A DNA stretch of 64,000 bases, taken from the NCBI GenBank assembly GCA_963971285.1, contig OZ020244.1, forward strand, positions 20,956,001 through 21,020,000. Reading direction: 5' to 3'. A program made the translations under genes and the position numbers. Below are positions 43,601 through 63,126 of the stretch, piece after piece. Origin of the DNA: Astropecten irregularis (Eukaryota; Echinodermata; Asteroidea; Paxillosida; Astropectinidae). The notes beneath the pieces are model-generated. The model worked only from the letters and a program-made list of their open reading frames with translations. It did not search any database and was not told the origin of the DNA. Position 1 is the stretch's first letter; the number at the start of each line of letters is the position of its first letter.

Positions 43601-46600
43601 GCTTACGGTAGCAGATTTTTTTGGTTACGATTAGCGTCTTTCACGGGTGAGTTTTCTTTTTGGTAATGGTAAGCAAGGAATTTGTGCAGAATGCATATGA
43701 CAGCGCGCTAGCAGAAAATAATCACGGTTACCCGAGAAATTATTCACTAACCGAAAGTCTTGCTTACGGATTCCATGAAATAGATTACATGCGTAGCAGT
43801 GCCAATACTTAGCACAAAAATAGGCCATAACGGATTCCATGAAATTGGGCCCAGGCCATTTATTGGGTTGACAGTTGACACGATCTGAATATTGCTCTTA
43901 TTCACTTTAATGCTGTGCCCAGGAGGTTGACACAGCATTCGTCATCCAGAACTATTACCAAGTAAAGTAATCCTTTGGGAACCATGCCAAGGAACAAGAA
44001 CAGGTGGTAGAAAACAAACAAACTACATTAGCATGCTAAAGAGGGACAATTGTTTAGACTGTATCGAGGAGCTAAGAACTCCCATGTTGGATAGAATGGC
44101 TTAGAGGGGATACGTTCATGGTGACTGAGCAGGCATTAGCTAAAATCATGTCTAATGTCTTCCCCACATAATAGTAATATGTGACCAACTATTAACGTAA
44201 ATGTGACCCTACTCTTGTTTCCTACCTTTTTGAGGTTTTTCTGGCACAAATCTGGTAGAGGCAGCCAGACCCCGGTTGACTAGTTCCTGATTAATGCAGA
44301 TCTCCCAGGAGCTGGATGGATCTAGGAGGACAAGTGGCAGGGGATCCTCACTGGCCATTCACGGGAAGAAAAAAAGAAGAAAATCAACAGATTGTTGGCA
44401 CAACAGGCTTCCCATAGCGTTTCTGGAATTCTGTCTTCACAAGAACACGATGTACTGGCCATGAATATGCAGTCATTCCCATCTTGGCAGATAAACATGA
44501 TGAAGGTTTTTTTTTATAACAAATCATTGGCCTGAATGAGTAAACCCCTGTGGAGTATATTTTCTATAACATTCACTGTCAATGTCAATGTTACTATAAG
44601 CATATGAGCTATTCCTAGTTAACTGTGTGAATCAAACTCCCTGACAACCCTGTCACCACTGTCAATGTCACTGCCAATGCCATTAGTATCCTAAGGACTA
44701 TTTCATTGTCACTGTCCATTCCACTTTTATCCTATTAATGGGCTGACCTTGTTACCCGTGTGGACCATTATTCCCTAATGAGTCTGTCACTGCCACTGTC
44801 ACTGTCAATGTCACTGCCAATGCCATTAGTATCCTATCCTATCTCATTGTCACTATCAATGCAACTATTATCCTATAAATGGGTTGGCATAGTTACCAGT
44901 GTAGACCATTATTCCCTAATGATTCTGTCACTGTCATTGTCAATGCCACTATTAACCTATAAATGGGCTGACCTTATCGTGTGGACCACAATCCCTAATG
45001 AGTCTGTCACTGCCACTGTCACTGTCATTGTCATTGTCACTGTCATCACAACACTGGATTGGCTGAGTTACCTGTCAGGATCGTAATCTCTAGTAGGTCT
45101 CCCACGTAACTTCTTCTCAAATCCAGTCATCTTGGTGAACTCCTTGATCGTGTCTTCACACCATTCTCCAGGACGATTTCCTGCATTGTGGCCCCAAAAA
45201 ATGAATCAAAATGGTACAGCATTATCTTCCATCAATAACAAATATATGGCATATATAGGCCTTTCACAAAATTGAATTGTCTAGAACACACTGGTTGTGA
45301 TGCTTGTGCACACCAAATATCCCATAACTATACACTACCCACACACCGACCAAACAATTAGCCATCCAACCCACCAAACCATAAGTAATATACCCTGTTG
45401 CTTTATCAAAGGATTTGTGAGTATAGAGCGTTTGTGCAGTAAACCCCCAGCTTTGTTAGAATGTGTTTATGTCATTCTCACTCACTGTGAGTAATGAATT
45501 ATTAATTAACTTCTCAAAGTATCTAGCTGATAGTTTGACCCAAATCCTGTGCTATACAACAGCGTCCTTCATCTGTGGAATTAATATTTAAAGATATGTA
45601 AAAGCATCAGCTATTAGTCTGTATGTCAGCCATTATTCAAACTAAATTCACAAAATGCTATGGAGACACCATTGGGATGAAATTTTCCTGCCCAGAGCAA
45701 TGCGATGAGATACTAACTGAGATGAATCACTACACACCTTCTGTCTTGGTAGCTTGGCTCTCCCAGTCTTCCTTGCTCTCTAGAGGGTTGATGTGGGCCA
45801 GGCTACACTTGATGACCTGCCCCGGCAGCTCGTAGAAGAGGGCCTGTAATGGTTTGAGAGCGTCTGCCTTTTGCCATTCCTGGTTCCCGTAGTCGACAAA
45901 CATCACTCGAACTTGTTTTCCTGGGACACGCGAATCAGGTCCTTCTGAGGATGTGGCTACCTCTACGTCACGGATGCTGATGATCTTGGCACGGTACCAA
46001 TCCCCGTCTAGAGTGTACTTGGCAGCACAGAGAACACCGGGTTCCAGGCGCAACTCTTCAGACATGTTCTCTGCTTTCTCACTGTTGTAGAAAGCGTTGA
46101 GGTCATCGGCAAGATAGTCCAGTTTGGTAGCGTCAGGGGTGACAAGATGGATGTAGAACTCCTGAGGGCTCACAATATGTGACATAGCTAGTGGGAAGCA
46201 GCTATTCTCTATAAACAGACTGTCCCTCTTGCTTAGCTGCAGATCCTGACAGGGAGGTGACTTGGGATTGGGTCTGCGTCTGGCATCAACAACTTCAGAG
46301 GATGAGCTGTTCTCAGAAGCGGAGGGAATCGGGGTCTTCTTGGACCCCTTGGAATCTATCTCAGTGAATGCAGAGTAGAATGAGCTGCAGCTTGAGGACA
46401 GATTCTTCGAGGACACACTCAAGGGCTTGTTGAGGCCTCCCGTGGAAACTTCTTCTGTTTGTTCCATTTCCTGATCCTCATCTGCCTTTTCACTGTCCAA
46501 GTGCTCGCTGTTCATTTCAGATGAAGACATCTTGGATATGATGCATTTCAAGTCGCTCTCAGCAGCATCTCGAACAAGTTTTTCCTGACACTGCTCCTTG

Positions 46601-49529
46601 ATGCTGCACTCTTCTTGGACATCTTCTTCCTTAGATTTTTCTGTCTGATCAGTAATCTTCTTCACACTGCTCTGCACTGAGTTGCAACTTGAAACCCCAC
46701 TGGAAGAGTTAGGACTGAACCTCCCATACCCGTTTGCTTCAGGAGTGTTCTTTGCTTCCCCGTGAGAGGAAGAAGAACTGTCTGGATCTTTGACAGGCCT
46801 CTCCTTCCTCTTTTGATTTACAGCTTGTTCATCATCCACCTTGGCATCCTGATAGAGGCCATGCTCCTCAGACTTTGCAGCATCTTTCTGGTTTGAGATA
46901 GCGCCATACGCTTTCCCAGTACTATGACAATCTGCATCTTCTCCTTTCATGACAGATGCGGTTGTCTTGCTTCCTTGATGCATCTGTTGTACATTCTTCT
47001 TGAGGTTGTGTGGCTGCGGGGCTTGCATAGAACCCTTCAACCTGCTTCCCCGGCCAGCCCAAGAACCCTTCTGTTTGGGACTACCTGTTTGATCTGAATG
47101 GGGAGGGCTGCGCTGACTAGGCAGAGATACCGAGTTCCTGTTAGCTGTCTTGATAGTAGCATCCTGATGCAGTGGTGGTTCCTTGCTCGAACCCTTGTTC
47201 GTGTAAGTCTTGACTGAATCAGAAGACTGGGGAGGAAGTCTTTCTTCATCACCTCTGAGCTCAGTGTGCAACTTTCTCCAGGCGGGGTCAAATATGTGTT
47301 TTGCCTTGGGGAATGCATTTACCTCTTGATCCTCCAACTCATCATATACCATCAGGGTACTTCCACTTGACCGCTTTACGTCATGATTAGAGTCACTCTT
47401 TGGTTTGGCTCCTTTAGGATCCGCCGCTTTCCGTCCAGTCTGTTTGTCCATCTGTGTAGGCTGTGCCTGTTTGGCTGGCTTTTTTGGTGCAGAGCTGGCA
47501 TTTCTGTCGACAGACCTACTCTGGTCGATGCAGCGTGTCTGAACTTGACTCAGGTTTGTTGCTGGAGTACTGCAAGCTTTGCTACTGTTACCTTCCGTCC
47601 TTTGCTCAGGCTTCTTGGTATCTGGACCGCAATCAGAAGCAGCACTCACCGTCTTGGAACCGACTTGTGGACTGGGGTCTTCAGCCCTCCCTCCTTTCGT
47701 CTGAGTAGTGTTTCGTGGCAAGGTGGGGTCTCCAGAAGCTTCTGTCCAAATTAAAAAAACAACAGCCATGTACAAGAAGCAATTCAAGATAGGCTAAACA
47801 AGGAAAACGTGTTTTTTTGCAAACTTAATCCTCTGATTATCTTACATATCATGGGAGTATTTCATCCCGAGGAACATGTGAAAAGTAATCCACACAAAAA
47901 CAAGCAGGAATGTGATTAAGGTTAGGACTGAGGTACACGTCATGGTCTTTCACTTGTGGAAAAAAAACAGTCCTTGAATTGCTTGGAAGTGTGGGATGTG
48001 GATAGAGCAGAGCAGCATGTTGTTTCTTATGCCTTCCACAGGCAGTTTGCAAAGCACAGAGCATAAAATGCTACAACATGTTAAGAATGGCGGATGTTTT
48101 ATATGAGAATATGTCCAGGTCCTAAAATGTTTTAAAATAAGAATCGTCTTTTCTTTCCTTCTCTCAGATCAAAGGAACTTGGAGAAGGGTGGTAGCTGTC
48201 CGGCTGATCAACTGATCGGGATACCCATCATGAATGGGCACCCCGCTCAGGTCTTTTCTTGATATTTACCTGAAGGTTTTGTGTCTCCCTCCTGAGGTTC
48301 GCAGCCAGCAATATACTGGGCCATTCCTCTCTGGACCATTTCCTTGGCCACATCAACCTGAGAGAGAAGTAATTTGATGATCTGTAATAGTATAAATAGC
48401 ACAGGCTGCTGCAAAATGCTCACCAACTGGAAAGAAGTACATAAATCAAAAGTGCGAAAGAGCATGATGCTTCTATACCGGCAGAATCCACCTCAAGGGC
48501 TGAATGGGGAAACCTTCAAGTCCTGTTGAGACTGCAATCTTAAAAGAAACTACTGAAAGCCTTGTTTGTGATGATTCAGAAGGTGAGAAGATTCTTTGCT
48601 TGTAAATGCAAGTCTGTGAACCATCACCCTATAGTCTCATCAACTGAATGAGACTTGGCCTTGATATGACCTTTGTAAAAACAGTCTACGATGATGGCAG
48701 TAATTGATACGTACATGTTGGTCTCCAGAGGGCGTTCTATCAGGCATAACCGGCACTAGCATATCAAGTGAGTGCATTCGACTGTCCTTGCAGGGCGTGG
48801 TGAGTGTACACCGAATGATCTTACCAAAGACTAACGTCTCAAACAACTTGATGTGATCCTTGGCCCAGGATCGGCCAGGATCCGGGGGCTTGACCTGAGT
48901 TCACGAGTGGAGAATTCCAGAAAGAGGAGGGGAAAAAAAGGACCAAGATGATGATACAATCCCAGTTTGAAAAGCAACGAGTGATGTCCATCAAGAACTA
49001 TTAAGCCGATGCTTGTAATACATTGAGTCAGATGGGCCTCCATTTAAAGGTAATTTCATACTTAGGTTTTTGTCAAAAAAATGCTGATTCATGGGCAAAA
49101 ATATCAATAAAGATACAGCAACTGTCGTCATCTGTGAAATTTCCAGTCCCATACGGTGCCCACTTTTTGAAAAAACAGTGACAAACGCCCACAGTATTTT
49201 AAAATCTTTTCATCGTTATTTCTGATCTTTTAAAGATCAAATTTGCTTTTTTCTTGATAAATACAGCATTTCAGGCAGAAAAACTTGAATGGTATGTGTC
49301 TACCATCACTATTTTAATACCCTGAAAGTTATAAGGCAAATCTGTGAAGATTTCTGTTTCAGTATGCTATCTAAGTATGATAGTATGACTGTATTTTAAA
49401 TGTGTGTATTTTTATGTTTTATTTAAAACAATGTGTTTATTTGTTTATGTTTTATTTTAAATAATGTGTGTATTTTTATGTTTTATGTCAAAGGTCAAAT
49501 TAATTTCCCCTGGTGGGACGATAAAGTTT

Positions 49530-55194: not shown

Positions 55195-58100
55195 ATGGCT
55201 GGATCAAGGATGAATAAGAGACTGTTCCTCATCTTAACGTTGTTTATCATCTTCTGCTGCTGTGGCTGGGTGCGGCTGCTCTTCATTATGAAGTCGTACG
55301 ACCTGGAGCCGAGGCACGTACCCGTCACTCAACTGGCATCCTTCTCAACCAGAGTTGAACATAATCATGTGAGTATTCAGACTTGTATGACTGACTCTTG
55401 TCGTTTCAATGATCATAACCCTTGGTCTGACATGGGGACGGGGTCCTAAAGGTCAGACCAAGGGTTACGATCATCGCAACTAGTATGACTCGTGACTCAG
55501 ACTCGAGACCGACTCAAGTCGACCTGGATGTCAGACTTGCGACTCAGAGTGACTCCAAGTCCCTCCGACTCAAGAGATGTTACTCGGACTGGAACTCGAT
55601 ATTAAATTGTGACTCAAATACAAGTCTGTTACTATTATTCAATGCTCATACCGTACTCATAGCTGCATTTGGATTAGATCCAGTAAATGAAGCCCTATAT
55701 TACTCCTTATTAATGATTTTGACAGAAGGAATAATATCTAAAACTTTCGCGGCTCAAGTTGCTGGATCCAATCATCTAATGCTGGGTGATGTGAGGTTAA
55801 GGATGCCAATTGTGTCCAACGTGTGGCACTAGGAGGAGCTTCAACCTCACAGAGGAAACAGTGATGCCCCCGGTCAATGCAGTAGTGTACACAGGGTTTG
55901 GACGTCTTGAATGAGAGTAACACAAAACACAAGTAACACAAATTGCCTTTGTACCAAAGGAACAACTATTAAAAATTGCCTTGCCCTGTAATATCCTTTT
56001 TCCTGACCTTTAAAATTTTGTTAAATAACATGAAAGGATTACAAATAATTGTCTTTCTCTCTGCTTGCAGGATTGGTACCAGTCGATGTGTTTCAGTGGC
56101 ATTGAGAATGAGTTGTCCATTTCAACTTTAGATGACTTCATCGAGAAATGGCAGGGGTCTAATACACATGCAGACTGCAGGTATTATGCATGAAGACAGG
56201 ATGCGACAGTTTTTGTGTTGTTGATATTGTTGTTGTTTTGCATGTTTGGAGTTAACAGGGCTTGACATTTCAATTCTAGCAGAATCTTTCTCAAAAGCTA
56301 AAAAGCCTTAAATAGTCTTTGAGAAAGATCCTTCCTTATGATCAAACATCAGGCCCTATACTCCAAGCATTCTATATTTCAGTTCAATATTTCGGATGAT
56401 GGGCTGTTTGCTGCACTTGTATTGAGATTTTTGACATCAGCTGTCCCTATATTAGCATGACTGGAGCAATTTATCCATTCTCAAATGCAGAATGCCATGG
56501 TGATCAGGTTGATGGGAGATAATGTTTATCATGTGGTTACAAGGGTGCAATAGCTTTGCAGAGAGAATATTAAAAGATGATCTCGTTTCCTCATCTGAGG
56601 ATGCCAAACCACTCTTTGTGGCTGTACTTCAATATCCACTCAGGGACCATTGAACAACCAAAGGCAGTCGAGTTGCGATGTAGCGTCCAATCCCTAAATC
56701 TTTTGGGAAAAAATTGTGAAGAGAATCTCACTTGATCCATCATCTTCCCAAATCTTGTCGTCTTGGGATTCTTGCTGTGAGCATTTCTGATTTCAACTCC
56801 CTTTACCTACAGCAACATGTACAGCACCTTCTCCAGCATCTACAGTGTGAATCGCCGGTCGGGTCAGCTCATCATTCCCGAGACGTTCCAGACCAAACTC
56901 CTCAAGTGGCTTGGAAATGACGAGGAACTTCTTAAGGAGGCCAAACTCCAGGTACTGGGGCCAATTTCATGGAGCTGCTCAGCACACACACAAAATGCTT
57001 AGCACAAAAATGTCTTGCCCAATAAAAATTCCATTTCATAGTCATGGTCCGAGAACAACAGCCACTAAGAACAATCAAAAGTGACAATACACATGGAATT
57101 TGGTTGTTAATCCTGTTTTTATTAAGACAGAAATTTCATGGTCAACAAATGTTTGTGCTAAGCAGGGCTGTGAAATTGGCCCCTGATCATATGCTGTCTT
57201 GGCTCATGACTGTGGTATTTTCCGTGTTTATTCCAATCTAAACCCCACAGCAAATTTCAACAGAGGGCGCTGTATTGCCATCATGAGTAGAAAATCTTTG
57301 GGTATATGACTTCCAGCTGAAAGTGTACTGTATTTGAACATCAGCAGAGTGTCACTGCAAAGGAAAGTAAAAAAACAGAATCCCCAAAACAAGAATTACC
57401 TATTTTACAGAACTTTCAAATCTGTATAGTAGGTGCACTATACTTTTTTCGTGATCTCGTACTACAGTTTTATTTTTTATTAAGGTTTCCTTCTTTGATG
57501 TGTATCAGCACCAGCTACTGTTTGAGTGACGGTGAGAACATCAATCAAACCCATAACCTCCTGGCCCTACGTACTAGTAGAGATGTCTATAAATCTCTAG
57601 CAACGATTAGTGAGATCGGAATTCGTTCAAATCCAGTATTGCAGCAGGTGCTTCAATCAACCAGCATCAGGCTTTATGCTTTCAGTGCGTATCACTGGCA
57701 TCCTGGGACAAACGGGCAATGAGATGAAACCCTTGGTTTGTCCTCCCCTCTCTTCCTAATGTAGTTCATCACATCGATATACAACAAGTACACCCACGAG
57801 CACACCCTTCTGAATCCGCTACGAGCCAAGAGACCTGGGGTCAGTAACGCGGAGGACATCAACGAGTTCATGGAGGAGCTGATCAAGAAGTCTGAGAAGA
57901 ACTGCGACTTCTGCGACTACAAATAGTGAGTCAGGATCTTGCTGGGTTTCCACACTTCCATGAAAACAGGACCCAAAGAAAACATAATAAAAAAGCTAGT
58001 GAGAAGCCATACTAGTGACAACCTGGAAGCTACACACACATGCCTCTGTATCCCAAGGATAAAGTAGGCTAGCCACATATGCAAAGCTGAAAACTTAAGA

Positions 58101-61100
58101 ATAGACATCATTCAAAGAGGATACATTTTTTTAATTTCAAACCACGGCCACAAGGGATATTGACTGGATTTTAGTGTAAACCAGAGATGCAACTTTTAAG
58201 ATTTTAATCCAAAATCAGATTTTTGCGTGGCCCTGCTTTTGTCTTCACGCAGCACACATATAACTATCTATAACATAGACTATCTATAACAAAGATAGTC
58301 ATTTCCAGATTTTTTTTTACATAGGCCAGTTGCATCTGTGATGAACCGAAGTCAAAATTGGCTGAAGCAGGATTCGAACCTGCAGATGACAACATCCGTG
58401 CTCTGCCAACTGAGCTATTACTCGGTCCTAAATTGGCAGTGAGCCAAAGAGCCAATCACATCTGGTGCTAGTCAGATGGTGCTGGTCGTTATGGAAGTCA
58501 TTGCGTGGAGCTGAAAGTGAAAGTCCATTTTGTGGTATTAAAGGATTTGGACAGATCAGGACAGTAAGGCCCAGGCATTGTCTATCTTAATGGAGTCTTG
58601 CCAGCCCAATGTATTATTAAGTCCAAAGAACTTTGGATTGGATTGTGGTAGATTCATAGATTCATGAAGGTTGCTTGTTAGTTATAAAACAAAATGTTCA
58701 GCTTTTTAGGGATTGAAATTTGACTCCTTTCGGGTTTTTTTTCCCCAGCAAAACAGCAGAGGATACGTTTGGGAGGATCGAATCGGAGCACAGTGCCACT
58801 GCGGCCAACGCCTTCAAGATGGATGGCTTCCATTCCCTGCTCATCTTGAAGAAACACGATCCCAGAATGATCACAGAGGAGCAGTTTCTGGATGCGATGA
58901 ACGTGGCCATGAAATGGTGAGAGGACGGGAACTAAGCAATGTCTTCATCAGGTTTTTCCTGCATTGTGTTTCCCCTAAGAGAGTGCATCTTTTATGGTCT
59001 TAATAACTGGAATATTATGGATAATTACAATCGTGCAAGATGTCATCGTTTCTGCGTTGCCACCAACCTCCACAGACATATCAGGGTCTGGATTATTTTG
59101 TCATGAAAATTCAAATTTACAAGCAAGCTATGGCTTGCTATTAGGTTCAGGGGTCGATTTCACGAAGCCCTACAATCGATCGTAACTCGAGTTTCGAAGG
59201 ATAACCCTTACGTAGGGCTGCAATGCATCATAAGTCCTATGATTGATCGTAAGTTACGATGAGTTTGGTGAAATCATCAACCCCAGGTTCATGCTGCTGC
59301 AAGCTCCATCTGACTTCACAAAATAAACGTTCAATCTTGTAGATCCTTCAAATAATTTTGGAAGGTTGAAGGTGTGATGTATTAATAACTCAAGAGGCAG
59401 TAATGAAAGAACTGGAGACCTTTTATTCCCATGTACATGAACAAATTAAAGTTTCATTTCCGGACTAGCCTTACTTTGTCCCCTCTTTTCCACCAGGTAC
59501 ATGAAGGTGTACGATACAGACAAACAGTATCGCTATCCACATATGATATGGGATAATCTACCTAAGTCCAGCGCCAGCCAGGTCCATCCCCATGCACATG
59601 TATTACTTAGCCCAGTCAGGCACTACGGTGAGTCTAAAATGCAAGGTGCCAATAGGGCCACAATGATCATCATCAGGTCTCAAAATTACCCAGTGGAACA
59701 TTAGAACTGAGGGGCTTGAGCCCCCCAAAAATGTTTGTCTAGCTCCCCCCCCCCCCAAAAAAAAAGAAGAAAAAAAAGAAAATGCAATAGCGCTCCGCAC
59801 TAATGATGTCACAAAATCCCCGGATGTCAGACAAACATTGTCTCACACACGTAGGTACATGGACGCGCACACCCACACACGTTTGCATGGTTGCTATATT
59901 TGTCTGAGATCTGGTGCTATTTTTAGTGCGGAGCGCTATTGAAAAAAAAAACTCTGGAAAATACTGGATCTTTTCAGTTATTCAGCGCCAATTACATAAA
60001 AAATGTGTTGTGTAGGCTATATGTGCATGTTTTTCTACTCCTAAAAAGATATAGCAGAAGCGAGTTTTAGAAAAGGGTCTTGCCCAAAAATATTGGGTCT
60101 TCTAGACCCCCCCCCCAAAAAAAAAATAAAAATAATAATGGCTCTTCTAGCCCCCCCCCAAATATTGGCTTATACATGTATATTATAGGGCTAGATAGTT
60201 CAGTTAGTAGAGCACCAGTATGGTATTCAGTGGGTCATAGGTTCGAATCCAACTCCTGTCAATTTTTCTTTGTTCACCCTTTTCAATGACTTAAAACCTT
60301 ATTTTCTTTTTGCTTTTATCTCATTTCACCAGGCGGGATAGAACATTTTAGGGTGGCTTCAATAAAGTACGGTCGAGAAAACCAAGGCAGAAATTATTTT
60401 GCAGATCTCCTTAAAGTAAGTGTCAATAAATGATGCAGTGCCATTGTGATTGATGGACTTCATTGCGTCAAAATCTCCAGAATTGATTCAGATTTTAAAT
60501 AACAGTTTCCAAGGAACAATTGATTGCCATGTATGGTTGGAAAGCTCTCCTCCAGTTTATCTCAGCGGTGAAAATATCTCTAGTTTGGATTAGGTGTTCA
60601 CAGAACCTCAACCTTGTTGAAGATTTATTGGGTGACCTGGTGGAATCCACCCACTTTATGCAGATCCTCTTGTCAAATAATGCTTCCCGATGTATGTTTG
60701 GTTTCTGTCGACACCAGCCTTCATTCCAATCTCATTTGTGTCTCATTTTGATTTACCAGGTCCACAATGCCCTGGGTTTGACGGTACACAAAGGCAATGC
60801 CTCAGTCTTGGCCTACCTCACACCGAAGAGAGACAACGACGTCATGATTCTGAGCAAGACGCCATGCCAAGATTTCTTCAGGTGATTCGAAATGAAAGAG
60901 TGACATTCTGCCAGTTGGTGATTTTTTTTTTAAAGAAGACTCCAGGATTTCACAGGATTTTCTGCAGCCTCGATTTAACACCGTCCGTTATTGGGCCCTT
61001 TTTTAAACCTCAGCTATGGCTCAGACTGCGGCTCTGTCTCCATTTCATGAATCCATTAAAAAATAACAGGTATCAAAATAGAGGTTTTTGGCTGTGGTTC

Positions 61101-62649
61101 GGCAGTAGATTTTCTGGTTTGAAAAGGAAAACAGAGCTTCAGCTTCAATGAAAAACCACAAGCTATATTTTCAGCATATGGATGACAGAGCTGAATCCGG
61201 AGCCAAAGCCAAGGTTTGGAAAAGGCCCTTAGTGACTTTTGGTTTTCTTTGCAGATTGGTGTACTATTGTTTGAGGGCTTTTATCGATCTGAAGTTATAT
61301 GCATGGAGCATGGCCATGTTTTTACCCAAATTGGTGAGTGATTCCTTCTTTATACTCTAGGTCAATTCCTTGATATTGGAATTTTGTCCTTATTTTGTAA
61401 ACCATAAGAAGTCCCTACAGTCAATTGTTCTGTCACGTATTCTTTGCACACAATTAGCCTCTCGAAAATTAAAATGAATAGTGACAAGTTCACAGGTTTC
61501 ATTCACTTCCCATTTGCATTCTAAACTTAAATTTCTCTCTTTTGGTATTTGGTTATCCATGCCAACCACAAGCAGTTTGTATGAAATAAAAGAATGGTCT
61601 ATTAAGTCAGTGGACCAAACGTGTGCCTGAGTTTATAACTCGCGTAAAAAGTATTTCCCTTCACATTTTGCATACAATATAGAAGACCAAAGTGATTTCA
61701 GGGTTAATTTATTCAAGTCTTCCATATTTCACCCTTCATAAAGGAACCGTGGAGCACTCCAGACTACGATGACATCCCAGCCATTGCAAGAATTGTCACA
61801 CGAGGGCCTGCTTCAAGCTCCAGAGCAGACGTGGGAGCTATGGAACTTTTTTCAGTGAGTTCCATAAGAAGTATTCCATAGAAATTGTGAGGGAGAAACT
61901 GATTCATGTGTATGAATTAAGGAGTACCACAATGTAGTTGCAAAATTTCAAAAAAAGATAAGTTTTTAAAGTGGAGAAAGGTTAAAGCATCTTTTCAATA
62001 ATTTTTATTTCACCCGATGCATTCTTTATCCCTTGTACAGATAAACAACGTGAATATTGACCCATTTTTGGTCGTCCAGAGACTAAAGAAGACTGTGGAT
62101 TCACTTGGCCAACCACACAATCCTTTAGAAGATGCCAAGGCCCAGAAACAAGAAATCCAGCAGCAGATTCTAGAACTGCAGCAGAAACAGCTGGAAATCG
62201 ACAAGCAGGTGATGCAGCAACAGCAGCAGCTGGTTCCAGGACAGCAGCAGAAGCAACCACTTCCACTGCAACAGCAGCAGCAGCAGCAGCAGCCACTTCC
62301 ACTGCAACAGCAACAGCAGCCACTTCTGCTGCAAGTGCAACAGCAGCAGCCACTTCCGCTGCAGCAGCAACAGCAGCAGCCTCTTCTGCTGCAGCAGCAG
62401 CAACAACTGCAGAACGAGTTGCAGGCGGGACCACAGCAAGCTTTAGAAGGGCAGCAGCAATTCCCTCAACAGCAGCAGCCACTTCCACTGCAACAGCAGC
62501 AGCAGCAGGAGCAGTTTCTGGGAGTGCAACAGCAACAGCAACTGCCTCCAAAAGACATCGGCGAGTTGGAGCTTGCAAAGGAAGTGGCGGAAGACAGCAA
62601 GCAAGCAAACATACCTCAACAGGCAAACAAAGCTTTCATTGGAAGTTAA
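55195..62649 (+). CDS. Membrane-anchored HIT/GalT-like protein with Gln-rich C-terminal tail, 11 exons, 628 residues
   Basis: Exons: 55195-55368, 56071-56180, 56813-56951, 57765-57925, 58749-58916, 59497-59627, 60333-60415, 60760-60881, 61255-61333, 61744-61854, 62041-62649. All are GT-AG and in phase, giving 1,887 nt. The N-terminus (residues about 9-31: LFLILTLFIIFCCCGW) is an uncleaved signal anchor, suggesting a type II membrane protein with the enzyme domain in the lumen or outside (inference). C188-x2-C191 and H281-P-H-A-H285 match the zinc-type CxxC and the histidine triad of the HIT superfamily. SASQ before HPH recalls Ap4A-phosphorylase/GalT enzymes, but these end in Gln where this has His. 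Members hydrolyse or transfer nucleoside phosphates; the substrate here is unknown. Residues about 463-606 are Gln/Leu/Pro repeats. The start codon lies directly before the anchor. An alternative frame for exon 9 was rejected because it breaks the phase. Confidence 0.87.
55411..55474. repeat. Short foldback in intron 1 of the HIT-like gene
   Basis: GATCATAACCCTTGGTCTGA is mirrored by GTCAGACCAAGGGTTACGATC around a G-rich loop. A GACTC-rich stretch (55484-55600) follows. Confidence 0.75.
56955..57184. repeat. Palindromic MITE GGGGCCAATTTCATGG (HIT-like gene intron 3)
   Basis: CTGGGGCCAATTTCATGGAG is mirrored by GAAATTGGCCCCTG. Inner blocks GCTTAGCACAAAAATG and TTTGTGCTAAGCAGG pair. The element begins 3 bp after the GT of the exon 3 donor (56952-56953). 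Confidence 0.82.
58330..58430 (-). repeat. tRNA-like SINE head (HIT-like gene intron 4)
   Basis: The minus strand reads GGACCGAGTAATAGCTCAGT + TGGCAGAGCA ... GCAGGTTCGAATCCTGCTTC: A and B boxes are both present, but acceptor stem halves do not pair. It is a SINE or tRNA pseudogene distinct from the GGGCTGGATAGCTC group. Confidence 0.6.
59148..59285. repeat. Palindromic MITE, CAGGGGTCGATTTCAC family (HIT-like gene intron 5)
   Basis: CAGGGGTCGATTTCACGAAG + CCCTACAATCGATCGTAACT opens it and GAGTTTGGTGAAATCATCAA closes it. It is an inverse-oriented close relative of 12286 and 62822. Confidence 0.83.
59497..59627 (+). other. Exon 6 of the HIT-like gene carrying the histidine triad
   Basis: This exon encodes WYMKVYDTDKQYRYPHMIWD followed by LPKSSASQVHPHAHVLLSPV. 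The H-x-H-x-H pattern followed by hydrophobics is the HIT motif; the central His (H283) would be the nucleophile by family analogy. The exon starts after caccag and ends at a GTGAGT donor. Confidence 0.85.
59705..60172. repeat. C-run element, copy 2, carrying a nested foldback
   Basis: GGGGCTTGAGCCCCCCAAAA on the left, and the core GCGCCAATTACATAAAAAAT with AGAAGCGAGT and CTCTTCTAGCCCCCCCCC on the right, match 39011-39298. The foldback at 59786-59940 interrupts it. Confidence 0.65.
59786..59940. repeat. Nested foldback AATAGCGCTCCGCACTA
   Basis: AATAGCGCTCCGCACTAA is mirrored by TTAGTGCGGAGCGCTATT. TCAGACAAAC.. and ..TTTGTCTGA form an inner pair. It sits within the C-run element. Confidence 0.8.
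60187..60300 (+). repeat. tRNA-derived SINE, plus-strand copy (HIT-like gene intron 6)
   Basis: GGGCTAGATAGTTCAGTTAG, then AGGTTCGAATCCAACTCC, then TTTTTCTTTGTTCACCCTTT and TCAATGACTTAAAA. It ends 33 bp before the acceptor of exon 7. Confidence 0.8.
60993..61231. repeat. MITE with GGGCCYTTTTYMAAACC ends, copy 2 (HIT-like gene intron 8)
   Basis: GGGCCCTTTTTTAAACCT is mirrored by AAGGTTTGGAAAAGGCCC. Inner GGCTCAGACTGCGGCTCTGT pairs roughly with ACAGAGCTGAATCCGGAGCC. It ends 23 bp before the exon 9 acceptor. Confidence 0.65.
61553..61602 (+). repeat. Fragment of the TAGACCTTT-ended element
   Basis: ATCCATGCCAACCACAAG and AAATAAAAGAATGGTCTATT match the right end of 19651-19970. The left part is missing. 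Confidence 0.6.
62041..62649 (+). other. Last coding exon of the HIT-like gene with polyQ/QPLPLQ repeats
   Basis: Residues 427-628. After a helical start (DPFLVVQRLKKTVDSLGQ) the exon turns into Gln-rich sequence built on CAG/CAA codons, with recurring QPLPLQ and QPLLLQ units from about 62150 to 62540. It ends in a mixed charged tail and TAA. CAG and CAA are interspersed and interrupted by Pro/Leu, so this is a coding-conserved or old repeat rather than a pure CAG microsatellite. The antisense strand is open only because of this composition. Confidence 0.85.
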
Positions 62650-62821
62650 ACATTGATCCCCTGAAATCTTCCCATGGCATCCCCTTGCCCTCCCGCCTCC
62701 TACAAATTGTCAGGGTTTCCATCGGATGCAAATGGTTTTAACCCCTTCTCTTGCCAGATAGTTATCTGCTTTATGACTCCAAAGAGAACAAGATCAACGA
62801 GTAATGTATTAAGTAATTGAT

Positions 62822-62974
62822 CAGGGGTCAATTTCACAAAGCCCTACAATCGATCGTAACTTGAGTTACGAAGTATAACCCATCATAGATGGCCTATCCT
62901 ATGTGGGGCAGCAATGCATCAAAGATCCTACAATTGATAGTAAGTTAAGATAAGTTTGGTGAAATTGACCCCTG
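62822..62974. repeat. Palindromic MITE, CAGGGGTCAATTTCAC family (3' of the HIT-like gene)
   Basis: CAGGGGTCAATTTCACAAAG is mirrored by TTTGGTGAAATTGACCCCTG. CCCTACAATCGATCGTAACT is shared exactly with 59148. Confidence 0.85.
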
Positions 62975-63126
62975 CTGCTGTCAGATCCTGAATCTGCAAC
63001 AACTGAACTTGTCTTGTACCAGTTACGTCAGAACGACTTCAGAGAGGACCATAAAATCAGGTCAACGTCACAGTGCTGGATCTGCATCTGCTGTGTACTC
63101 AAGAATCTTTGAGAGCAGCACTCTTA

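Follow-up and report, generated by a model that had tools for sequence, protein, structure and literature searches.

Within the HIT superfamily, whether Gln or His follows the catalytic nucleophile usually divides GalT-type transferases and phosphorylases from HIT hydrolases, the hydrolases carrying His where GalT has Gln. The enzyme GALT is described in an excerpt of PMC5081055 as having a uridylylated residue, His166, that forms a covalent His-UMP, a zinc site composed of Cys52, Cys55, His115 and His164, and two iron-site histidines numbered 299 and 301; in the human enzyme, Gln188 contacts the bound UMP. An excerpt of the review PMC7705103 is in line with the Gln-or-His divide, yet it also describes an Ap4A phosphorylase from Mycobacterium tuberculosis that has a full H-x-H-x-H motif and is nonetheless a phosphorylase, so the last letter of the motif does not by itself decide for hydrolysis. 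The protein analysed here shares that H-x-H-x-H arrangement with the mycobacterial enzyme, as judged from the review's description.

The gene encoding this protein, called the HPHAH gene after five residues of its putative active site, resides in a 64,000-nucleotide stretch of DNA from Astropecten irregularis (hereafter the window). Eleven exons between positions 55195 and 62649 join into a single frame of 1887 nt including the stop codon, which encodes 628 amino acids (Table 1). All ten introns begin with GT and end with AG, and an in-frame TGA lies two codons upstream of the ATG. The placement of exons 10 and 11 comes from direct inspection of the sequence. On the + strand between 54 and 63 kb, the top donor score (8 of 9) is attained by 4 of the 465 GT sites, and the gene model uses all four; likewise, acceptors with 14 of 16 pyrimidines occur at 3 of the 620 AG sites in this interval, and all three are used. 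The exon 1 donor and the exon 2 acceptor are among these top-scoring sites. Thus, the joined protein proposed in a preliminary description of this DNA, made from the sequence alone, stands: the frame is kept, the introns are regular and the best splice sites are used. Furthermore, archaeal homologues align collinearly with the stretch between about residue 101 and residues 443–450 or so, spanning exons 3 to 11, which rules out a chance chain of open reading frames for that part. No homologue was found here for exons 1 and 2 (residues 1–94) or for the Gln-rich tail.

Table 1 Exons and active-site features of the HPHAH gene (positions are those of the window)
Feature	Positions	Strand
Exon 1: start codon, short basic N-terminal tail (net +3), hydrophobic anchor at residues ~10–32 (55222–55290)	55195–55368	+
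Exon 2: residues 59–95, no homologue found	56071–56180	+
Exon 3: homology to the archaeal family begins at about residue 101	56813–56951	+
Exon 4: GalT-type R161-A-K-R164-P165 (57822–57836) and C188-D-F-C191 (57903–57914)	57765–57925	+
Exon 5: KKH231DP; H231 codon at 58855–58857; one of two alignment modes pairs H231 with H115 of E. coli GalT	58749–58916	+
Exon 6: putative active site D270-N-L-P-K-S-S-A-S-Q-V-H281-P-H283-A-H285	59497–59627	+
HPHAH codons: H281, H283 and H285 aligned with the GalT Zn ligand H164, the nucleophile H166 and Q168, respectively	59585–59599	+
Exon 7	60333–60415	+
Exon 8: KVHNALGL and LTPKR segments common to the archaeal family; sole N-glycosylation sequon N335-A-S	60760–60881	+
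Exon 9	61255–61333	+
Exon 10: IARIVTRG...ADVGAMELF, the C-terminal family signature	61744–61854	+
Exon 11: catalytic part ends, followed by a 43% Gln tail (residues 471–628) and the stop codon	62041–62649	+

Residues 59–450, searched against the same genome (168 contigs, 475.7 Mb), returned ten matches at E ≤ 1. All ten are exons 2–11 of the HPHAH gene itself, and hence no second copy is seen at the sensitivity of that search. Judged from its sequence, the HPHAH locus is a real enzyme-type gene for which no second copy was found. PF01087 does match elsewhere in this genome, at three exon-sized stretches above the cut-off (C21:13088459-13090987) that encode the motif NPHPHCQ. This separate locus with HPHCQ indicates that the HPHAH gene is not the GALT gene of the genome.

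Several other features of the window were observed. A large open frame at 45730–47793 on the − strand carries a Tudor domain (4.8e-22) and is probably part of a Tudor-domain gene. Two similar stretches with inverted ends, at 59145–59290 and 62820–62975, resemble a short mobile element by eye. Stretches at 58330–58420 and 60190–60265 look tRNA-like by eye, with a box-B-like GGTTCGAATCC, and are possibly tRNA-derived SINEs; ARAGORN calls no tRNA genes in the window.

Database searches with the single protein gave few leads. Residues 1–493 matched no Pfam family, neither PF01087 nor PF01230 included, residues 1–450 matched no PDB sequence, and the same residues yielded nothing of weight in NCBIfam, where the one match (Hsp33, 0.19) is irrelevant. 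When a 170-residue piece containing the active site was compared with phages and plasmids, nothing firm emerged besides a plasmid-encoded Halococcus protein called P0001, which carries HPHLQ (tblastn E 0.02). In a two-sequence comparison, P0001 and the HPHAH protein match at 5e-10. P0001 in turn matches a GalT-like protein, P0002, at 5e-4, and P0002 carries PF01087 (6e-13); P0001 served as a bridge between the HPHAH protein and GalT-like proteins. Two surveys, with models made from the bridge proteins and the core of the window protein, then reached a set of archaeal relatives. No report of such a protein was found among the titles and opening lines of abstracts of open-licence PubMed Central papers.

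The archaeal relatives define a family to which the window protein belongs. Its core matches 13 archaeal loci by BLASTP with 29–35% identity over 343–385 positions (E 3e-51 to 2e-64); nine of these come from the phylum of a Woesearchaeota record (L027) and four from the phylum of a Methanocalculus record (L023). A ten-row alignment, A5, which includes the window protein, was used to search for further members at E ≤ 1e-30. In the L027 phylum, 12 of the 261 genomes contain members, and in the L023 phylum 51 of 392 give matches. Among the latter, 43 score above 150 bits and the other eight score 107–122 bits; these eight are genomes that the earlier survey listed with HP/SHxQ sister-group members. 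We read 42 archaeal members, all 12 from the L027 phylum and 30 of the 43 from the L023 phylum. Identity to the window protein ranges from 27 to 36% (over 353 and 320 aligned residues for the lowest and highest values), and residues 101–470 of the window protein alone match the 42 members with a profile E value of 7e-58.

Phylogenetic trees agree with this assignment. In a first tree, the window protein forms a clade with 22 archaeal members (support 100/100), and in a second tree it does so with all 42 and with a protein called L156 (100/100). L156 is the family member found in a bacterial phylum, in 1 of 199 genomes of the phylum of an Acidobacteria record; among 4 genomes of its class, this same genome is the one with a member. 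In the phylum of a Verrucomicrobia record, 0 of 194 genomes gave a member, an empty answer that is uninformative. No branch of the second tree is longer than that of the window protein (2.08), and the row closest to it, L156, is placed there with support that is not firm (91/75), so that we are unsure of where the window protein sits inside the family. The two proteins share 35% identity over 356 aa (E 2e-70), and both carry xxLP and ASQV around the motif. A second archaeal GalT-like group, in which the motif is mostly HPHxQ, comprises P0001 (L001:2641-3645) and loci L083–L103, L105, L107–L110 and L112; it adjoins the archaeal family in the first tree, and the single member scanned, P0001, gave no Pfam match beyond one to DUF4921 that is below threshold.

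The same conclusion follows from conserved residues. Of 30 columns that are invariant in the 42 archaeal members, the window protein keeps 24, including H281, H283, R161, R164, P165, R409, D418, G420 and E423. Signatures common to both are N.....E....N.LR..RP, GR, W-x-x-L, HxHx, R.V.R....D.G..E and DP. The HxH formed by the nucleophile and its flanking His, the RxxRP element and the C-terminal D.G..E signature are all present, whereas the Asn and Gln that surround the nucleophile in 42 of 42 archaeal members are D270 and H285 in the window protein. Given the homology and the clade, we file the protein as a variant of the family by descent. The window protein also differs from archaeal members such as L111:1456-2490, L055:1321-2388 and L127 by its predicted N-terminal anchor and its Gln-rich tail; in alignments from which exon 1 was left out, the archaeal relatives have little counterpart of exon 2, and none for exon 1. 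The two family members scanned against Pfam and NCBIfam gave nothing of weight, a match to DUF3519 (0.03) being irrelevant. On the basis of these comparisons, we conclude that the product of the HPHAH gene, a nuclear gene, is a eukaryotic representative of a mainly archaeal, unnamed family of GalT-type proteins in the HIT superfamily.

Profile comparisons tie this family to GalT. A profile of the 42 archaeal members matches 21 GalT-type proteins at E 1e-13, and addition of the window row improves this to 3e-14 (Prob 98), whereas two reversed profiles and five unrelated families used as controls give E values of 0.15 or worse. Compared with 7 GalT-type proteins plus P0001, the window core attains a profile score of 59.6 (Prob 94), versus at most 26.8 for 242 controls, made up of 200 shuffles and of 21 E. 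coli proteins in both forward and reversed form. Omitting P0001 lowers the score to 41.0 (Prob 61; controls at most 28.0), and the half of the protein bearing HPHAH then aligns with the C-terminal repeat of GalT rather than the N-terminal one. Among 177635 PDB sequences, the family profile finds two at E ≤ 10, neither significant by itself: the HIT protein 1y23 (E 0.47), aligned through the motif, and the GalT-like protein 1z84 (E 1.4), with aligned pieces at RAKRP and the motif. These profile matches indicate that the archaeal family is a diverged GalT/HIT branch. Membership of the GalT/HIT superfamily, as the preliminary description had it, is therefore upheld by the family profiles, although the single protein has no Pfam HIT or GalT match, an outcome that the preliminary description had named as one that would count against it.

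Alignment places R28, R31, C52 and C55 of E. coli GalT at R161, R164, C188 and C191 of the window protein, and H115, S161, H164 and H166 at H231, S278, H281 and H283, with H115 shifting by one residue in a second alignment mode. A CxxC and a nucleophile position for H283 had both been proposed; the former is CDFC in exon 4 and the latter agrees with the alignment to H166. The window protein keeps all four zinc ligands C, C, H, H (C188/C191/H231/H281), as do 19 of the 42 archaeal members; the other 23 lack the quartet, so the family does not depend on zinc. Of the residues that we take to form the second metal site in E. coli GalT (E182, H281, H296 and H298, His in the K-12 sequence), none is conserved in the window protein as aligned. 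Thus, the R, C, H and S active-site residues of the GalT or At5g18200 type (PF01087; PDB 1z84, 1hxp and 5in3) align with the window protein, which differs from this type in having H285 for Q168 and D270 for N153 and in lacking a PF01087 match. With the HIT hydrolases HINT and FHIT (PF01230), it shares the last His of H-x-H-x-H, but it has the two-lobed length of GalT-type proteins, no PF01230 match and a family background of the Q type.

This background bears on how the HPHAH sequence arose. Codon placement in the joined frame confirms HPHAH at residues 281–285. The archaeal motif, WN[CFV]LW[KR][AS][GA][AG][ST]..H[GN]H[AMIL]Q, holds in 42 of 42 members, with the Asn, both Trp residues and the Gln invariant; the window protein departs from it at D270, P273 and H285. 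In all, six changes fall at the 30 invariant columns (Y219M, N270D, W273P, Q285H, K346R and N381S, archaeal letter first). The corresponding L156 sequence, NSLPRAGASQVHGHMQ, has the Pro at the place of the Trp and retains both the Asn and the Gln, so the Pro is not unique to the window protein. Gln also occupies the third place in 61 of 62 motif-bearing open reading frames at the top-ranking loci of two GalT-type surveys (30 of 31 in the first, 31 of 31 in the second), 13 of these 62 being family members; locus L053 of the first survey gave no motif. The sole exception, P0003, was picked precisely because it carries HPHAH. These counts bear out that a third-place His is rare, as the preliminary description implied. 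Because the window protein lies inside a Q-type family, the change from Gln to His, with that from Asn to Asp nearby, is a derived substitution. A 'chimeric' motif that combines a GalT or Ap4A phosphorylase lead-in with a hydrolase-type ending, as originally suggested, does not fit the H[GN]H[AMIL]Q background, and this reading was dropped once the archaeal family had been found.

Pattern searches provided one further instance of HPHAH. The pattern N..AS..HPHAH gave 23 stretches in genome contigs, one of which, in the Woesearchaeota record, lies inside a CxxC-bearing GalT/HIT-like open reading frame. This frame, P0003 (L027:1508-2683, − strand), encodes an archaeal protein of 391 residues with CNFC and AGASEAHPHAH, and its Pfam HIT match (7e-4, 20.5 bits) is just below the cut-off of 21.5. 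By BLASTP it resembles the HPHAH protein at the motif only, and therefore provides no evidence for close kinship. The other 22 stretches were judged chance or unrelated from their reading-frame context, nine of them having a stop inside the 16-residue stretch, and both stretches found in viral contigs were judged chance. A first scan of genome contigs with a two-row alignment produced 121 pattern stretches and no relative, and neither the window core nor the family alignment detected one in scans of viral sequences.

The N-terminus carries a predicted membrane anchor. The most hydrophobic 19-mer of the 628-residue protein starts at residue 13 (Kyte-Doolittle 2.46), and a nine-residue tail of net charge +3 precedes a 23-residue hydrophobic stretch whose downstream flank has net charge 0. 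The single sequon, at N335, lies within the catalytic part. Hydropathy and charge suggest a type II signal-anchor protein, and a short basic tail followed by one anchor and a catalytic part is the layout of Golgi enzymes. At the other end of the protein, the Gln-rich tail is encoded by CAG-type repeats (62213–62540) interrupted by PLPL-like steps, and long open reading frames in other frames of this region are probably a by-product of the repeat.

Genes adjoining the archaeal relatives offer a hint to the substrate. Neighbours within about 1.5 kb were collected at 20 of the 42 family loci, and 40 of the 49 neighbouring open reading frames of at least 100 aa were run through Pfam. Eleven of the 20 loci have an alpha-glucan, glycosyltransferase or sugar-nucleotide gene: PF05693 glycogen synthase (which we take to be the animal/fungal type) at five, NTP_transferase at five, debranching enzyme at two, GH57 at one and group-1 glycosyltransferase at two. 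The other nine, at which such a gene was absent or not seen by Pfam, adjoin genes for ribonucleotide reductase, tRNA synthetase, DHH, GTP cyclohydrolase, polymerase and repair, among others.

When sugar-related neighbours were used as tblastn queries, matches were found at 9 of 12 family loci in the L027 phylum (L114–L125) and 17 of 30 in the L023 phylum, compared with 15 of 21 GalT-type loci in the L027 phylum (L052 and the non-family loci of L057–L082) and 0 of 27 sister-group loci in the L023 phylum. Loci that supplied queries match by construction. Glycogen synthase lies near 14 of the 21 GalT-type loci and 8 of the 12 family loci of the L027 phylum, five of these eight having supplied queries; with query-supplying loci left out, it is near 3 of 6 family loci. 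In the L023 phylum, the same omission leaves a glycosyltransferase at 12 of 25 family loci, one also with a debranching gene, a figure that is weak because such glycosyltransferases are common genes. A glycogen link specific to the family was rejected, since GalT-type loci of the L027 phylum show glycogen synthase as often. From this shared neighbourhood, we infer that the archaeal family and GalT-type proteins share a kind of job, the handling of NDP-glucose or hexose-1-phosphate. The neighbourhood describes the archaeal relatives and GalT-type genes, not the window gene.

Our preferred explanation, which we hold tentatively as possible though somewhat short of probable, is that the HPHAH gene encodes a eukaryotic GalT-type family member that acts as a type II membrane enzyme, forms His283-NMP from an NDP-sugar and has a changed fate for this intermediate. 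The short basic tail would be cytosolic and a single signal anchor would place the catalytic part in the lumen of the ER or Golgi, or outside the cell. By analogy with GALT chemistry, His283 would attack the alpha-phosphate of an NDP-sugar-like substrate, the leaving group would depart and NMP would be held covalently on His283, in a pocket presumably shaped by R161, R164 and the zinc site C188/C191/H231/H281. The substrate would most likely be an NDP-sugar of the glucose type, as for the microbial relatives, because glycogen synthase, sugar nucleotidyltransferase, debranching and glycosyltransferase genes adjoin many archaeal members. Asp270 and His285 would most likely alter the fate of the His-NMP, passing it to water, which would make the protein an NDP-sugar or dinucleotide hydrolase, or to another acceptor. 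Weighing against this proposal are the second GalT metal site, which is not seen, the absence of the zinc quartet from 23 of 42 members, the longest branch in the second tree, the alignment of the HPHAH half with the C-terminal GalT repeat when P0001 is omitted, and a glycogen neighbourhood that GalT-type genes share and that 9 of the 20 loci do not show.

Loss of both polar amides beside the nucleophile could spell loss of activity. A pseudoenzyme, which would retain its fold and nucleotide pocket in a binding or scaffolding role after catalysis went with the equivalents of Asn270 and Gln285, seems to us rather doubtful. Its case is that an Asn and a Gln invariant in 42 of 42 archaeal members are both changed on what is the longest branch of the second tree, and that, according to the excerpt of PMC5081055, a Gln-to-Arg change at this position of human GALT leaves about 8% uridylylation versus 81% normally. 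However, both motif His residues, RxxRP, the zinc quartet and 24 of the 30 invariant columns are kept, and His is normal at the third place in HIT hydrolases, so that Gln-to-His is no arbitrary loss. The exchange might instead be simply tolerated, the protein retaining the phosphorylase or transferase activity assumed for its microbial relatives and making hexose-1-P plus NDP, or an NDP-sugar, in a membrane compartment. The H-x-H-x-H of the M. tuberculosis Ap4A phosphorylase (excerpt of PMC7705103) and the HPHAH of the separate GalT/HIT-like P0003 fit such retention, but the Asn is changed besides the Gln, 0 of 42 archaeal members have a third-place His and the microbial activity is itself only assumed; we regard it as unlikely. 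The membrane anchor would be lost if exon 1 were not joined, through another first exon or a downstream start, giving a soluble enzyme. Exons 1 and 2 lack a homologue and, in the alignments made without exon 1, the microbial relatives show no counterpart of exon 1 and little of exon 2, yet the exon 1 donor and exon 2 acceptor are top-ranked out of 465 and 620 candidates, joining them preserves the reading frame and an in-frame stop lies close upstream of the ATG, which together make a soluble form improbable.

That a eukaryotic branch of the family moved onto a membrane of the secretory pathway and, by exchanging the catalytic amides Asn and Gln for Asp and His, turned from sugar-nucleotide transfer or phosphorolysis to luminal hydrolysis of the HIT type (or to a new transfer reaction) is, in our estimate, rather unlikely; if true, it would represent a natural switch, within a single family, from one branch of the HIT superfamily to the other. 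Members of this protein family scanned against Pfam and NCBIfam gave no match of weight, and the family often resides beside archaeal glycogen or glycosyltransferase genes and has a eukaryotic descendant that is predicted to be membrane anchored. That one family exhibits a Gln-to-His change with the nucleophile kept makes the role of this residue directly testable.
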